In this document: positions 25,814 to 30,973 of the stretch, piece by piece
Numbering within the stretch: position 1 is the stretch's first letter
How the letters are laid out: each line of letters begins with the position of its first letter
NCBI GenBank assembly: GCA_945787015.1
Contig: CALZGM010000003.1
Coordinates: 1-64,000 of the forward strand
Length of the DNA stretch: 64,000 nucleotides
Direction: 5' to 3'
Origin: an uncultured Roseburia sp.
GTDB lineage: Bacteria; Bacillota; Clostridia; Lachnospirales; Lachnospiraceae
Notes under the pieces: generated by a model
What the model saw: the letters and a program-made list of their open reading frames with translations, nothing else
Database searches by the model: none
What the model was told of the DNA's origin: nothing
Position numbers and translations under genes: made by a program

Positions 25814-25876
25814 AAAGGTACTTCAGCCAATAATAGAAAACTCATTCTGTGAACTTTCTATTGACACAAATAAAAT

Positions 25877-25902
25877 AGGAATACTGAAATATCAGTATTC
25901 CT
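25877..25902 (-). terminator. hairpin, original tRNA-Leu(CAG) terminator
   Basis: AGGAATACTG and CAGTATTCCT form a perfect 10-bp stem with a six-base loop. It sits nine bases from the attL copy of the tRNA 3' end. On the minus strand a T-rich tract follows, so it was probably the tRNA terminator before the element separated them. Confidence 0.6.
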
Positions 25903-25910
25903 ATAAAAAG

Positions 25911-25931
25911 TGCAGGAGATGGGACTTGAAC
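25911..25931. repeat. attL: left 21-bp direct repeat
   Basis: Identical over 21 bases to 30879-30899 (begins TGCAGGAGATGGGACTT, ends GAAC). The repeat is the T-arm and acceptor 3' strand of tRNA-Leu. It is the host's original tRNA end, now cut off from the tRNA body by the element. Confidence 0.9.
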
Positions 25932-25990
25932 ACCTCCCCAGAGACCAGAAAACGCTAAAATAAAGGATTACAGGGGCATCGACACCACTG

Positions 25991-26009
25991 GTCTCACCCT
26001 AGGTCACAC
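25991..26009. repeat. left arm-type repeat of the element
   Basis: GTCTCACCCTAGGTCACAC lies 60 bases inside attL, directly after the stop of the left recombinase gene. It contains two GTCNCAC units. The same arrangement occurs at 30786-30803. These are candidate integrase arm sites. The flanking bases GAGACCAG (25941-25948) and CTGGTCTC (25988-25995) also form an 8-bp inverted repeat. Confidence 0.6.
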
Positions 26010-26010
26010 C

Positions 26011-26880
26011 CTAAAGATTATACAAATATGAATTTGCTATTACATCAATTCTATTATGTCCTAATTGGCGTGACGCATATAGCATCGCCTGTCGGTCATA
26101 TCTCACCCCGGCCATATCTCCCCGGCAACAATATGTATCTTCTCGTGTAAGACTATCGAGCGGACGAGCTACACTCCGATAAGCTCGGCACGCATATTCC
26201 GCACGGCAATGGTGCTCATCGAAAGCACTATGTACATGAGAAAAGACTTTCCCGGTGCCAGCAGAATGCATCATCTTTATAACCATCGACAGCTCCTCTC
26301 TACTGCCATGGAGGTCGATATCCCGAACTTTTCCACCTTTCCCTTTTATGTTGCGTAGAATCGGATTCCCGTTCTTGTCAAAAGCAAGGCTATCGCCGTG
26401 CAAGGCTTCCAGCTCATGACGACGAAGACCAGAGCACTTGGCAAGCGTCGTTAATTCGAGATTTGAAACCTCACTGAAATGTGCATCTCTTTTTGCTGCA
26501 AATCTACTCCTCTTAATATCTGCGCGTTCCCTTTTGGGTGCGGTGTACTCTATTTGCGTCGTGCTAACACCCCATGCTTTCGCCAGAGCGTTCATTGCCG
26601 TTGATATTGTCCATGCACTTTTCCCTTGAGACTCCAACGCTCGGAGATATGCCGGAATCATGTTCCATGCGATATCCTTGTCAGATATCCCTACCGAGGT
26701 CAACCAATCGGCAAAATGATTGCACTGTGACAAATAGGTCTTATAAGTCACATGGGAGTGAATGTAAGGGCTCGCATTGTGCACGTCCTTTAATCCATGT
26801 TTGGGGCGACCATGCCCTTGCTCATATTTCTCGCGCAATTGGTCACGCATCCATTTTCTAACCTTGATTTTCTTTCCCAT
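26011..26880 (-). CDS. tyrosine recombinase A of the element
   Basis: 289 residues. An N-terminal core-binding domain (about 35-115; YKTYLSQCNHFADWL) is followed by a catalytic domain. The presumed active residues are Arg153/154 (SGLRRHELEAL), Lys181 or Lys184 (KGKGGK), His223-x-x-Arg226 (HHCR), His275 (QLGHNR) and Tyr285 near the C-terminus. It is short and has little sequence in common with recombinase B of the same element. It may excise, resolve or integrate the element. The start has AAAGGA upstream. The stop lies next to the arm-type repeat. Confidence 0.82.
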   Translation of the reverse strand: MGKKIKVRKWMRDQLREKYEQGHGRPKHGLKDVHNASPYIHSHVTYKTYLSQCNHFADWLTSVGISDKDIAWNMIPAYLRALESQGKSAWTISTAMNALAKAWGVSTTQIEYTAPKRERADIKRSRFAAKRDAHFSEVSNLELTTLAKCSGLRRHELEALHGDSLAFDKNGNPILRNIKGKGGKVRDIDLHGSREELSMVIKMMHSAGTGKVFSHVHSAFDEHHCRAEYACRAYRSVARPLDSLTREDTYCCRGDMAGVRYDRQAMLYASRQLGHNRIDVIANSYLYNL

Positions 26881-26928
26881 AGTGCTGTCCTTTCTGTGTT
26901 AAGAATTGTTTCGCCTTGTTAGGGTTAC

Positions 26929-27126
26929 TTACTGGTTCCTTTGGTTACTATGATTCGCCACGCACCCGATGAACTCATTGTCGGTATGTTTATGCGATTT
27001 CTTCGTCTTGGCAACTCCCTCTAACAGCATTGCGCCTGCCACCGCGCAATCCATTTCGCTTACTGAATGATGAGCTATGGGGTCGACACGTTCGTCGTGC
27101 TCATCCTTGCACCTACTCGGTGCCAT
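26929..27126 (-). CDS. 65-residue protein of the element, unknown
   Basis: 65 residues, hydrophilic, with many His and several Cys/Asp/Glu (MAPSRCKDEHDER...). It has no membrane helix and no motif I recognise. The start has AAAGGAGA eight bases upstream, and it lies 48 bases before recombinase A in the same direction. It could be a small regulator or excision factor. The reading frame is short, so moderate confidence. Confidence 0.55.
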   Translation of the reverse strand: MAPSRCKDEHDERVDPIAHHSVSEMDCAVAGAMLLEGVAKTKKSHKHTDNEFIGCVANHSNQRNQ

Positions 27127-27216
27127 TTATGTGTCTCCTTTCTTTCAATAGCCTTTTAAAGTCTGCCATCCTAGTATGTTATAAATATGTGACCTATGCC
27201 CGGTTGGTATCGGTTA

Positions 27217-27254
27217 ATCTGTTTATTCGTACATAGATGCCCGAATAAACAGAT
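27217..27254. repeat. perfect 13-bp inverted repeat in the element
   Basis: ATCTGTTTATTCG and CGAATAAACAGAT enclose a 12-base loop (TACATAGATGCC). It sits in the 205-base gap between the two small genes. There is no T-run, so a terminator is less likely than a replication hairpin (single- or double-strand origin) or a promoter operator. Confidence 0.65.
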
Positions 27255-27289
27255 AGTAATGGTTGCGACCCAATAGGGCGGGATGGAAC

Positions 27290-27320
27290 AAAAAGAGCCA
27301 GCAACCATCAAGCTACTGGC
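27290..27320 (-). terminator. terminator of the rep operon
   Basis: On the minus strand GCCAG and CTGGC form a stem (further pairing TAGC/GTTG is weak), followed by TCTTTTTG. It lies 11 bases after the stop of the 76-residue gene. Confidence 0.7.
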
Positions 27321-27331
27321 ATCTTTTCTAG

Positions 27332-27562
27332 CTATTCAATTGTTTCCCGAATCCATCCCAAATAATCAATGTTCTCGGTGATCGCCATCTGATTTGGGCT
27401 CGTCAAGAGCTCCTCGTAATCGACATTCCCAGCAATCCATTCCAGCACAATATTTACATCCGCAAAAGAGTGGAACAATTCTTTGTTGAGGTCGTCGGTC
27501 ATTAACGTTTGAATTACATTGATTGCAGTTGCTATCTGTTCTTTCGTTAAGTATTCGCTCAT
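27332..27562 (-). CDS. 76-residue acidic protein co-transcribed with rep
   Basis: 76 residues from ATG 27562, chosen over an upstream in-frame start because a near-perfect AAAGGAGGTGATT ribosome binding site fills the 16 bases between the rep stop and this ATG. The protein is acidic and helical (MSEYLTKEQIATAINVIQTLMTDDL). It contains no DNA-binding motif that I can name. The position after rep suggests copy control, replication or ssDNA-related roles. Unknown family. Confidence 0.75.
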   Translation of the reverse strand: MSEYLTKEQIATAINVIQTLMTDDLNKELFHSFADVNIVLEWIAGNVDYEELLTSPNQMAITENIDYLGWIRETIE

Positions 27563-27578
27563 CTTAATCACCTCCTTT

Positions 27579-29216
27579 CTACTGATACACAACACTGCTT
27601 TGAGGAATGTCGCCAAGTGTCTGGCGGATGATTGCTTTTATTGAATCCGTCTCCGGTACTTTCAACCAAAGAACGTCTTCGTTAGTGTCTTTGCCATGTT
27701 CCTCAACAGCTTTGATACCGGGACAAGACATTGCTAGGAGCCTAACAATATCTCCCTGTGTGGAATATTGCACTCCATCCTGTTTGATTGTGGTCGAGGA
27801 CATTTCCACTTCACTTGCACAAGAGATTACCACTTGTTGCGGTAATACAACATCCCCTATCACTGTGTCTGGATGTTGATTTATTGGAGGCTTGCGACTG
27901 AATAGATATGCCACCTCATTTTGCACTGAAATTTGCGAATGAGACCTATCGTTCACTAACGCAAATAATCTGCCAGTATCAGGGCGAATGTAACCTTTTA
28001 CATATTCCTCAAACAAGTCCCGAAAGGTGATATATCGCTTGACACGCTCTTTTAATACAGCCTCTGTACCTCGATTTGATGCACTTTCACATAGGAGGAT
28101 GGTTTCGCCTTTATCATTTTTCGCGATTGAACACACGAAAAAACGTGAACGCACCGCATCTAACTGACTATTGCTACAGCCGCATTGCTTTGCCCATTCA
28201 TCGAAAGGTAAGTTAGAGGTTACGACAATTGCTTTACCTGTGAAAGGCCTGTCATTACTATTGCGTCGATAGGCCTTCACAACTCGATTGTCGCATAAAT
28301 TAAGAATAGCAGGAGCTGTCTGGTCATCAATGATTATGGCCTCTGTTCCCGCTTTTAGAGTGTCAAATTTTCCACTCCCCTGGCGGTCTATGACCAGTAT
28401 CTTATTCATTCCCATCGCGCGCAAAACCAAATCACTGGTGTAGGTCTTTCCGTCATTGCCGTTACCACGGATGTAAATACACAGACGGGCAACACGGCAA
28501 GGGTCTTCCTCCAGACGTCTGTCAAGCCCACGGTCGTATCGCTCACCCAACACCTTATTTAATGTCCTGTCGAGATGTACACGAGCACAAAGCTGGTCGT
28601 GCCAATCGTCGTAATCCTTGAGGTCATAACCCAATTGAGTTGCGGTTTCCATTAGCTCTGCTTTGTCTTCCAGTGTCAGCTTACTGGTTTGAGCTGATAC
28701 TCGGGTATACCCATCTCGAATCATCTTGACCTCTTCGGGGGTCAAGTTGCTGACGATTTCGTCTTCTTCGTAGTGCTCCTTGCCATCGGCGATTGCTTGC
28801 GGAGTCTCGTGTGTTAAGTACATCGCATACGCGGCAAAATTACGCACCGTTTCGATTCCGTGCTTTTCAATCATTTTGACGTCTTCCGGACGGAACACAA
28901 CGTGTAAATCTTTTAGGATTTGGCGAACATGCAGTCCAGATTTAGAGACGTTTTGTCCGGACTTGCCGTCCATAACTCGTACAATGATGTGGTAATGGGC
29001 TTTTTCAACGGACGGCCGAAAAAAGTCGTCACCAAGGGTATCTCTGTCATGCCGAATTGCTAGGATTTGATACCTAGCTTTACTGATTGAGCGGATGAGC
29101 TTCTTTAGCGATTCCCAACCGTTTGGGAGTTGCTCGTCGTATATCTTTAGTGCGAGTGTTTTGACGTTGCGATTAAGGGTCATCTCCATGTTTTTTTCTA
29201 CTTCTTTTTTTTTCAT
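27579..29216 (-). CDS. rolling-circle replication initiator: HUH nuclease fused to SF3 helicase
   Basis: 545 residues from ATG 29216 (GGGAGG upstream). The N-terminal nuclease (about 15-170) has motif II His74-Tyr-His76 (KAHYHIIV) and motif III AAYAMYLTHE with candidate nicking tyrosines Tyr130 and Tyr133. This Y-x-x-Y-L-T-H form recalls Rep_2 proteins of pE194/pMV158 plasmids. The helicase (about 240-400) has Walker A GNGNDGKT (251-258), Walker B AIIIDD (293-298), motif C VVTSN (Asn335) and arginines in AVRSRFF. The nuclease would nick the origin and the helicase unwind it. The fusion is the CRESS-DNA Rep layout. The last 140 residues match nothing I know. Confidence 0.85.
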   Translation of the reverse strand: MKKKEVEKNMEMTLNRNVKTLALKIYDEQLPNGWESLKKLIRSISKARYQILAIRHDRDTLGDDFFRPSVEKAHYHIIVRVMDGKSGQNVSKSGLHVRQILKDLHVVFRPEDVKMIEKHGIETVRNFAAYAMYLTHETPQAIADGKEHYEEDEIVSNLTPEEVKMIRDGYTRVSAQTSKLTLEDKAELMETATQLGYDLKDYDDWHDQLCARVHLDRTLNKVLGERYDRGLDRRLEEDPCRVARLCIYIRGNGNDGKTYTSDLVLRAMGMNKILVIDRQGSGKFDTLKAGTEAIIIDDQTAPAILNLCDNRVVKAYRRNSNDRPFTGKAIVVTSNLPFDEWAKQCGCSNSQLDAVRSRFFVCSIAKNDKGETILLCESASNRGTEAVLKERVKRYITFRDLFEEYVKGYIRPDTGRLFALVNDRSHSQISVQNEVAYLFSRKPPINQHPDTVIGDVVLPQQVVISCASEVEMSSTTIKQDGVQYSTQGDIVRLLAMSCPGIKAVEEHGKDTNEDVLWLKVPETDSIKAIIRQTLGDIPQSSVVYQ

Positions 29217-29232
29217 ATTGTGCCTCCCAATA

Positions 29233-29337
29233 GTGACCACCTGACAACCTAGTGACCACCTCTTAGCCGTAGCTCGGTGGTCACGCGCAAAAGCAGTGTT
29301 TACAAGCTTTAGAAGGTTATGTGACCACCTGACCACC
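29233..29337. repeat. iterons upstream of rep (candidate origin)
   Basis: GTGACCACC occurs at 29233-29241, 29252-29260 and 29321-29329, its reverse complement at 29276-29284, and a shortened TGACCACC at 29330-29337. The repeats start 17 bases before the rep start codon. Clustered iterons here fit Rep binding for origin recognition and autoregulation. Confidence 0.8.
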
Positions 29338-29373
29338 ATGTTTTTATTAGTTACGCTCTAAATATGGTATGAG

Positions 29374-29459
29374 GGGGGCGTCCATATGTTTTAGAGTTAA
29401 TAAGTGAGGTACATATTGACGTAAGTGACTCGTCCATATTTTGTACGTAGGGGGCGTCC
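29374..29459. repeat. second repeat pair between rep and recombinase B
   Basis: GGGGGCGTCC occurs at 29374-29383 and 29450-29459; CGTCCATAT occurs at 29379-29387 and 29431-29439. They overlap partly. They lie in the intergenic origin region and could be nick-site or regulator-binding repeats for recombinase B, whose start is 25 bases downstream. Confidence 0.6.
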
Positions 29460-29483
29460 CCTGGTCAGAAAATGGAGTTACAT

Positions 29484-30866
29484 ATGAACAATGACGATAT
29501 GAGAAAGGTATTACATGATTTATCTTCAGAGAGAGCATCTATACAACGCCAGCTAGAATGTGGTATCATTACTGCTGTCGATGCCTCTATGGAAGAGGAG
29601 AACATTATGACCAAAGAAAGGAAGATTAAAGAGCAGTTGGTTCTTTCCGCTCATATAACCAAGAGCGGAACCCCACGAAAAATTGAATACAAAGAAGGAA
29701 AGGGATTGTGGATGACCATCCTTCCCAACGATAAGAGATTGTACGCGAAGACGCGTGATATCCTTATCGACAAGCTGTTTGATTATTATGGACTATGCGT
29801 TGCAGATTGCACTATCAAGGGTATATTCGAGTTGGCATTGAATGAGAAGCAAGCAACCCAGAATGTAAACGCCGGAACAATCAAGAGAGACCGTTATCAA
29901 TTCGAGCGATTTATCTCATCGGAGTTTGCTTGTCGAGACATTCGCTCTATCTCCAAGACTGATTTGCAAACATATACACAAGACATGGTTAATCGTATTC
30001 GCCCAATCGAGTCAGCATTTAAAGCATACAAAGGGATTCTTAATCTTATCTTTTGTTATGCTCTCGAATACGACATCATTAGTGTTAACCCAGTTCAGTT
30101 TCTCAAGAATGCTATTTACCTCAAGGGATGTGACCGCACGAAAGCAAAGCCCGAGGACAAGATACTATCCCCGGAAGAGATAGCGTGTGTAATTCATGCT
30201 GTACGGGAAAGAATGACGCAGAAACGATATCATGGATATTTCATTAACGGGTACGCGATTTTGCTATCTATTGAAACCGGAATGAGGGTTGGGGAGCTGT
30301 GCGCTCTCAAATGGAGTGACATCAAAGACAATGTAATCCATATCCATGCGCAACAGTTAATGTACAAGGACAATGGGCGGAATTACTATTATGTCGGTTG
30401 GACGAAAGATGAGAAAGGCCGGAGTCAAGGCGGACGTGAATTTCCTATCACTGATAAAATCAGAAGTATCTTAACCGAGATACGGGAACTGCAATCCTCT
30501 CTTGATATTGAATCCGAATTTGTATTTTGTAATACAGATGGACGATGGATTTATGCGAAAGCCTATGAGGATTGTTTGAGAGGGCTCTGTAAAGCACTCG
30601 GACTGAATGTGACGAATAATCATGCATTTCGCATGTCACTTAACAGCAATGTGCTTATTCCGCTTGGTATTCCCGTCACGGAGCGAGCACAATTGCTCGG
30701 ACACTCGGTTGAGACCAACCAAAAGTACTATAGCTACGCACAAAAGGATTCCAAAGACCAAATCTGTGCACTGCTAAATAGTCAAGTCACACCTAGGTCA
30801 CACTCAAATATAGTGCCCTTTAAACAAAAAGAAAGCCCCGAGACCGCTATTCTCAAGGCTTTCTAG
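29484..30866 (+). CDS. int: tyrosine recombinase B (Tn916-type integrase) of the element
   Basis: 460 residues from ATG 29484; GGAG lies five bases upstream. An in-frame ATG at 29472 would overlap that site. An N-terminal coiled and arm-binding region (1-105) is followed by a core-binding SAM-like domain (about 112-215) and a catalytic domain with Arg268 (TGMRVGE), Lys308, His380-x-x-Arg383 (HAFR), His407 (LLGHS) and Tyr416. It is the likely enzyme for insertion at tRNA-Leu, since its gene ends 12 bases before attR. The C-terminal coding bases contain the right arm-type repeat. Confidence 0.92.
   Translation: MNNDDMRKVLHDLSSERASIQRQLECGIITAVDASMEEENIMTKERKIKEQLVLSAHITKSGTPRKIEYKEGKGLWMTILPNDKRLYAKTRDILIDKLFDYYGLCVADCTIKGIFELALNEKQATQNVNAGTIKRDRYQFERFISSEFACRDIRSISKTDLQTYTQDMVNRIRPIESAFKAYKGILNLIFCYALEYDIISVNPVQFLKNAIYLKGCDRTKAKPEDKILSPEEIACVIHAVRERMTQKRYHGYFINGYAILLSIETGMRVGELCALKWSDIKDNVIHIHAQQLMYKDNGRNYYYVGWTKDEKGRSQGGREFPITDKIRSILTEIRELQSSLDIESEFVFCNTDGRWIYAKAYEDCLRGLCKALGLNVTNNHAFRMSLNSNVLIPLGIPVTERAQLLGHSVETNQKYYSYAQKDSKDQICALLNSQVTPRSHSNIVPFKQKESPETAILKAF
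30786..30803. repeat. right arm-type repeat of the element
   Basis: GTCACACCTAGGTCACAC, two GTCACAC units in direct order, lies 76 bases inside attR and inside the 3' end of the recombinase B gene. It matches the left copy in 12 consecutive bases (CCTAGGTCACAC). Confidence 0.6.
30830..30863 (+). terminator. hairpin at the end of recombinase B
   Basis: AGAAAGCC and GGCTTTCT flank a loop with inner GAG/CTC pairing, ending just before the int stop codon. There is no T-run; it may stop transcription from int entering the convergent tRNA gene. Confidence 0.5.
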
Positions 30867-30878
30867 TAAAGTGATGAA

Positions 30879-30962
30879 TGCAGGAGATGGGACTTGAACC
30901 CACACGACATTGCTGCCACAGGCACCTGAAGCCTGCGCGTCTGCCAATTCCACCACTCCTGC
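30879..30962 (-). tRNA. tRNA-Leu (anticodon CAG)
   Basis: 84 bases on the minus strand. The acceptor stem is GCAGGAG/CTCCTGC, the anticodon stem CAGGC/GCCTG with loop TTCAGGT (anticodon CAG), a long variable arm typical of tRNA-Leu, and a T-arm GTGGGTTCAAGTCCCAT. CCA is not encoded. Its 3' 21 bases are the attR copy, so the element rebuilt an intact tRNA on entry. Confidence 0.95.
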
Positions 30963-30973
30963 AAGCAAAAACT

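Follow-up and report, generated by a model that had tools for sequence, protein, structure and literature searches.

A window of 64,000 nt from an uncultured Roseburia sp. (assembly GCA_945787015.1, contig CALZGM010000003.1, positions 1 to 64,000) carries a 4,968-bp unit at a tRNA-Leu(CAG) gene. We interpret this unit, with a probability of about 0.85, as an integrated rolling-circle plasmid of the YLxH (pCRESS4-8-like) kind; judged from its sequence, it is intact. Integrated plasmids of such a kind are already known; new here is a predicted replication origin, a hairpin with a nearly constant loop. Relative to an earlier sequence-only reading of the same stretch, the additions are a second recombinase, this origin hairpin, and repeats near the attachment (att) sites.

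The Rep protein and the borders of the unit

The rep gene (27579..29216, minus strand) encodes a 545-aa protein combining an HUH endonuclease with a superfamily 3 (SF3)-type helicase, as judged from PF01719, a RepB profile match, and motifs. The longest open reading frame (ORF) at rep is 586 aa (27579–29339, minus strand), and the 545-aa reading starts at 29216. PF01719 (Rep_OBD) is matched at 27.2 bits (cut-off 24.6), and was found in 9/13 aligned Reps at E-values up to 1. A profile of 11 Reps retrieves the solved pMV158 RepB with an E-value of 3.6e-7, compared with only 0.038 in a single-sequence search. The HUH motif H-x-H is present in all 13 aligned Reps; motif III reads YLTH in the window Rep, YLxH in 11/13 aligned Reps, and YATH in 2/13. 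The family and profile matches bear out the original assignment of this domain to the Rep_2/pMV158 type, and the Rep residues cited at that time are all found, with numbering that agrees with the 545-aa form. In this numbering, H74, H76, Y133, T135, H136, G256-K257, D298, and N335 are invariant in six Reps.

The protein extends about 390 residues past the HUH domain, and the ATPase motifs lie in this extension. The ordered residues G251, G256-K257, D298, N335, and R358 are invariant in 11/11 Reps; ATPase motifs are wanting in 2/13 aligned Reps. When the helicase half was compared using hhalign, the best match was L097, an HUH-plus-helicase Rep that exceeds the PF00910 cut-off (P 2.7e-5 over 153 columns). 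Other results make an SF3 assignment less certain: PF00910 was seen in only 1/13 Reps (E 0.082), and two RarA-like AAA+ controls (1.3e-4 over 17 columns) ranked ahead of a second HUH-plus-helicase Rep, L099 (3.3e-4). No helicase structure was found by sequence search with the Rep profile. Some AAA+/SF3 ambiguity is expected, because the helicase domains of YLxH Reps connect to bacterial AAA+ ATPases (PMC6668415). Of the SF3 helicase named in the sequence-only reading, the ordered motifs stand, being invariant in 11 Reps, but the profile match is weak and AAA+ controls come close; the motifs are those expected of an SF3 helicase, the fold of which they do not prove.

PF00910 was rejected as a marker for SF3 Reps, having matched 179/187 genomes and 7/14 controls; among 20 PF00910 loci that were translated, two (L097 and L099) encode HUH-plus-helicase Reps, and most others are DnaA- or RarA-type by eye. 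A tree of 13 Reps had too little resolution to position the window Rep among its relatives. Two Rep relatives were excluded from the alignment of 11 and kept in the origin count described below. L019 (7800–9128) has the HUH part and YLTH, and is without ATPase motifs and without an origin loop in the 500 bp upstream; L024 (1474–2625) has lost Walker A and keeps an origin hairpin with the loop GCTACGGT.

The length of the unit is the spacing between the starts of two exact copies of a 21-bp direct repeat. The attL copy (25911..25931, plus strand) duplicates the 3' end of tRNA-Leu(CAG), and the attR copy (30879..30899, plus strand) lies within the intact tRNA-Leu(CAG) gene that is the integration target (30878..30963, minus strand; ARAGORN, Rfam). 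With up to three mismatches, the sole extra match of the repeat in the window is the 3' end of a neighboring tRNA-Leu(AAG), and three matches were reached in 0/100 shuffles; with up to two mismatches, the whole genome (3.3 Mb, 59 contigs) holds the two att copies and the neighboring tRNA-Leu(AAG) only. The exact repeat, the intact tRNA, and the spacing uphold the unit of about 5 kb between 21-bp repeats at tRNA-Leu that had been proposed. The tRNA region was sought in 62 same-genus genomes (own genome included), 61 of which gave a match, and the stretches of 12 were compared. In G017 (69% complete; tRNA region about 80% identical), which is another species of the genus and not a sister strain, the left-flank genes are in the same order up to the tRNA pair; the corresponding stretch lacks rep as well as rec1, the gene for the second recombinase, and contains a different ORF of 391 aa. 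In the other 11 stretches there was no match to Rep, Rec1, or the integrase Int at 1e-8, and the left flanks are not the same. Variability of the locus between relatives, which had been suggested as a check, is thus seen between species of the genus, with G017 lacking the element at the same locus.

A predicted origin with a near-constant loop

The predicted double-strand origin (29252..29284, minus strand) consists of a 9-bp stem and a 15-nt loop with GCTACGGC (29266–29273). This hairpin is probably the replication origin of the element. RepB of pMV158 nicks TACTACG/AC in a hairpin loop (PMC5030251), and mycoplasma plasmids of the pMV158 family have TACTAC(C)G/A in common (PMC3541243). Because CTACG is common to the loop and the pMV158 nick site, the analogy suggests a cut at GCTACG/GC, between 29268 and 29267.

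The origin was searched for in 14 Rep loci including the window, over a stretch reaching from 500 bp upstream to 150 bp downstream of the longest rep ORF's start (in the window, the 545-aa start). When L014, which nearly duplicates L018, is excluded from the k-mer count, GCTACGGC occurs in 9/13 loci; across 20 shuffled sets no 8-mer occurred in more than 6. With L014 included, the octamer is found in 10/14 loci and the heptamer GCTACGG in 11/14. Each of these 11 GCTACGG hits reads in the rep sense and occupies a loop closed by a perfect stem of 7–14 bp; the other 10 GCTACGG rows in the same loci have stems of 2–5 bp (two rows being doubled, as L010 and L018 are the same contig), and stems of at least 7 bp were found at 55/3000 random positions. 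In a wider set of loci, GCTACGG with such a stem was found in 12/38 rows (largely the same rows, with one contig twice), compared with 1.6% across 60 permuted heptamers, of which the highest reached 5/61.

The hairpin is embedded in iterons of GTGACCACC (29233..29337); the four exact copies present in the 64 kb are all clustered here within 97 bp, and two make up the arms of the hairpin. Allowing one mismatch raises the count to 10, which is not unusual (6/100 shuffles). The stems differ by element, and so do the short repeats that flank the hairpin, these being GGTGGTCA in the window, GTGTAACA in the plasmid pRGI00651, ACCGGCAC in L012, and TGTAGCCA in L023; TGTGTCCC occurs in L014, L016, and L018. 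The enrichment of flanking repeats was weaker in L011 and L024, and L015 and L017 did not beat shuffles. The pRGI00651 hairpin is separated from rep by a small ORF.

Several observations count against the hairpin as an origin. The motif was discovered and tested on the same loci. In G003 and L019, the 500 bp preceding rep contain no GCTACGG loop; L020, with only 213 bp to search, was also counted as lacking it. In four loci (window, L012, L014, and L018) the longest possible rep ORF includes the hairpin, which precedes rep only if translation begins further downstream. The 64 kb contain a single GCTACGGC, a count that by itself does not exceed chance. Folded as single-stranded DNA, the 121-nt origin region does no better than shuffled sequences (z -1.10; 26/200 as good), and the best such fold pairs other iteron copies. 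L117, a Rep_2 plasmid without helicase intended as a positive control, has no CTACG hairpin with a stem of at least 6 bp, and L097 and L099 have CTACG only on 6-bp stems. Further CTACG hairpins, at about 1.5 kb from rep in L009 and within a different ORF in L019, were discounted as possible chance matches.

A search of part of the literature on pCRESS, rolling-circle origins, and such elements in Clostridia and Lachnospiraceae gave, among the papers listed, no account of this origin; one may exist elsewhere, for instance in the supplements of PMC6668415. The main text of that paper has no mention of a stem-loop or nonanucleotide, and the mentions of "nick" there are not about pCRESS origins. 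The octamer GCTACGGC, searched for with rolling-circle or origin, gave no account of this origin among the papers listed; the one listed for the octamer concerns a ribozyme.

At odds that we put just short of even, the helicase-bearing integrative plasmids of Lachnospiraceae and their kin may share a two-part origin code, in which a near-constant, pMV158-derived nick loop, GCTACGGC, is set in hairpins and iterons private to each element. This would be the origin of at least this YLxH branch, the Reps of which would come from pMV158-like plasmids; in elements without a relaxase the same Rep might also start transfer.

Relatives of the element and competing readings

Rep relatives were sought in samples that overlap between ranks and include the own genome each time: matches were found in 2/62 genus genomes, 5/396 family genomes, 7/393 order genomes (three weak, about 1e-4), and 4/393 class genomes (two weak). 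A scan of genome contigs with Rep gave seven loci. Among 72,556 plasmid records the only match was pRGI00651 (HG796354.1), the Rep of which is 39.8% identical over query residues 14–409 and which has the same origin hairpin. Three relatives have direct repeats around rep and int that overlap a tRNA gene: L012 (24 bp, tRNA-Pro, spacing 6.7 kb), L015 (23 bp, tRNA-Ser, 7.3 kb), and L017 (22 bp, tRNA-Gly, 6.3 kb). In L009, a serine recombinase replaces the tyrosine integrase, and no direct repeat was found with its tmRNA; L014, L016, and L018 gave no tRNA-linked repeat in the two flanking stretches searched.

The plasmids pCRESS4-8 are described as having the YLxH motif, the same domain order, site-specific integration, and no capsid (PMC6668415). 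The window element resembles them in an HUH domain with YLxH motif III, in site-specific integration with direct repeats, in the lack of a capsid, and in a helicase domain after the HUH domain, the latter known in the window Rep from motifs and a weak profile match. The Rep architecture and integrated relatives invoked in the sequence-only reading therefore fit pCRESS4-8, and the suggestion of a possible new group is not sustained, since all of these features are published (PMC6668415). Unlike pCRESS4-8 as described, the window element has a second, plasmid-type recombinase. pRGI00651 differs in being a free circular record of 3.2 kb, with a MOBV relaxase and no integrase among its three annotated genes (relaxase, small gene, and rep). 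Rolling-circle plasmids such as pMV158 and pE194 are extrachromosomal. They share with the window element the HUH domain and a nick motif in a hairpin loop with direct repeats, but are without a helicase domain as described, and of their nick site, TACTACG/AC, the window loop shares CTACG only (PMC5030251, PMC9943647).

An unlikely alternative is that the unit is an integrative mobilizable element (IME), in which Rep would act mainly as a non-canonical relaxase, nicking the hairpin for conjugative transfer via a helper integrative and conjugative element, with replication secondary. This is how streptococcal IMEs have been interpreted: 15 encode proteins with PF01719 and PF00910, read as a relaxase, and four of them have a TcpA coupling protein (PMC5357655, PMC5704250). 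The window element is similar in having a Rep_2-plus-helicase protein on a small integrated element; unlike two streptococcal IMEs at rpsI (one with TcpA), it is located at tRNA-Leu with no TcpA recognized (PMC5357655, PMC5704250). Protein-family scans of the unit recognized no canonical relaxase, coupling protein, or cargo; Rep might serve as relaxase, but the lack of a recognized coupling protein speaks against transfer of this type. So does the presence of a separate relaxase in 8/10 elements scanned for neighboring ORFs (8/9 relatives, the window being among the 10; L019, L020, L023, and L024 were left out of the scan). Mob_Pre was found in pRGI00651, L009, L014, L015, L016, L017, and L018 (L014 and L018 being near-copies), and MobA_MobL near L011, about 2.3 kb from rep; none was recognized in the window or L012. 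Furthermore, in pRGI00651 relaxase, small gene, and rep are the only annotated genes of a free circle.

It is improbable that the unit is instead a decayed plasmid remnant, integrated and no longer able to excise or replicate. No excisionase was recognized in family scans of the unit, nor a relaxase, and Rep matches once in its own genome; the element is known here in its integrated form, its circle junction not having been observed. These points weigh against an intact plasmid. Yet no stop codon interrupts Rep, Int, or Rec1, the two att sites match exactly, and the origin hairpin is intact together with its repeats, in keeping with the integrated plasmid that we prefer.

An integrated ssDNA virus (a CRESS-like prophage) is extremely improbable: the nuclease-helicase order of Rep is common to CRESS-DNA viruses (PMC6668415), but no capsid gene was recognized among the ORFs of the unit (family and PHROG scans), Rep matched 0/50,697 phage records, two viral-contig scans (with the Rep protein and with the Rep alignment) confirmed no relatives, and 8/9 relatives scanned have plasmid-type relaxases. 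The initial view of the unit as more plasmid- than phage-like, with no capsid gene, accordingly agrees with the capsid scans and the phage records.

Remaining genes, Rec1, and the proposed life cycle

The unit encodes rep, two small ORFs, and rec1 leftward, and int rightward. Int is a 464-aa tyrosine integrase (29472..30866, plus strand; PF00589, 1.3e-17; PHROG integrase, 4.2e-40), the stop codon of which is 12 bp before attR; it has no match in plasmid records at 1e-20. Downstream of rep is a 76-aa ORF (27332..27562, minus strand) with weak matches to uncharacterized families (best E 0.0036); the ORF list has it at 94 aa, beginning with TTG and extending to 27616, and the shorter start was picked by eye from an upstream GGAGG. 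The second, of 65 aa (26929..27126, minus strand), has no family match and is possibly spurious. Neither small ORF has a significant family match, and none of the five unit proteins matched PADLOC at 0.01. A 38-bp near-palindrome between the two small ORFs (27217..27254) is possibly a recombination site or operator. Between rep and int (29357–29459), outside the origin hairpin, there are two imperfect repeats with GGGGGCGTCC and CGTCCATAT, possibly an operator or lagging-strand origin.

Two imperfect direct repeats of 17 bp, 88% similar to each other, are located 66 bp inside attL (25998..26014, plus strand) and 70 bp inside attR (30792..30808, plus strand). They have TAGGTCACAC in common, exact copies of which in the 64 kb are confined to that pair, and are possible integrase arm-type sites. 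Terminator-like hairpins are located at the int end, now downstream of tRNA-Leu (30830..30864, minus strand), and just outside attL (25875..25904, minus strand), the latter perhaps the original tRNA terminator; nine terminator-like sites were observed in the region, with 4.7 expected. Because of the positions of these two hairpins, the tRNA may have been separated from its own terminator, with the element supplying a replacement. In an element-free relative a hairpin was read by eye at the tRNA.

In G017, the genome without the element, a distant integrase (L058, 8112–9428; 22.5% identity to Int) lies past the tRNA pair, adjoining tRNA-Leu(AAG), and for this reason the tRNA-Leu pair may be an integration hotspot. 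Int-related integrases (E up to 1e-40) occur in four other genomes of the 62, with 32–48% identity over the matched part; in the three viewed, they adjoin tRNA-Leu(CAG) in G027, and tRNA-Leu(AAG) in G009 and G040, with repeats of 26 and 24 bp and spacings of 8.4 and 11.2 kb. Stretches of this kind in same-genus genomes, of about 11 kb (L124, 6756–17955) and 8 kb (L125, 162–8615) with a related integrase, lie between direct repeats at tRNA-Leu(AAG).

Rec1 (26011..26880, minus strand) is a 289-aa tyrosine recombinase of a family that occurs on small plasmids, with weak SAM-like and XerC matches below curated cut-offs. By eye, the recombinase residues R, K, H, and Y are kept, with YxxR replacing HxxR. 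It matches 22 plasmid records at 25–39% identity (20 over at least 80% of the query; 21 of 3.5–28 kb) and 11/298 family genomes (own included, one weak), with no match to solved structures or in phage records, and a viral-contig scan with Rec1 confirmed no relatives. In the six Rec1-homologue plasmid records viewed, replication proteins, where annotated, are RepL, replication initiation factor domain, or Rep family; the window Rep found none of the 22 Rec1-matching plasmids at 1e-3. The best inverted repeats of 13 homologues gave no common recombination site, none being widely recurrent or like the window palindrome by eye; one of 12 bp recurs in two Streptococcus suis plasmids (L087 and L088). 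Both plasmids also list a RelE/ParE-family toxin gene, and one record also erm(B). By analogy with the occurrence of its family on small plasmids, Rec1 might resolve dimers of the circle, a guess held with less than even confidence.

In the proposed life cycle, Int would recombine attP with the 3' end of tRNA-Leu(CAG) and leave the tRNA whole; integration by Int is suggested by the repeat, the intact tRNA, and the relative without the element. Excision would yield a 4,968-bp circle, which would then be copied. By reference to the conserved parts and to pMV158, Rep would bind its private iterons, the hairpin would extrude, the HUH tyrosine Y133 would nick the loop at GCTACG/GC, and the SF3-type domain would unwind the strand, with Rec1 perhaps resolving circle dimers. 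For transfer, the element would depend on a helper or on Rep acting in a second role, because no capsid, canonical relaxase, or cargo was recognized in the unit.

Bacterial plasmids of this kind are a proposed source of the Reps of CRESS-DNA viruses (PMC6668415). The single predicted scissile bond makes the replication start of such Reps testable, and the loop hairpin can be used as a marker for further elements. If true, the two-part origin code would be DNA-level evidence for a pMV158-like descent of these Reps.

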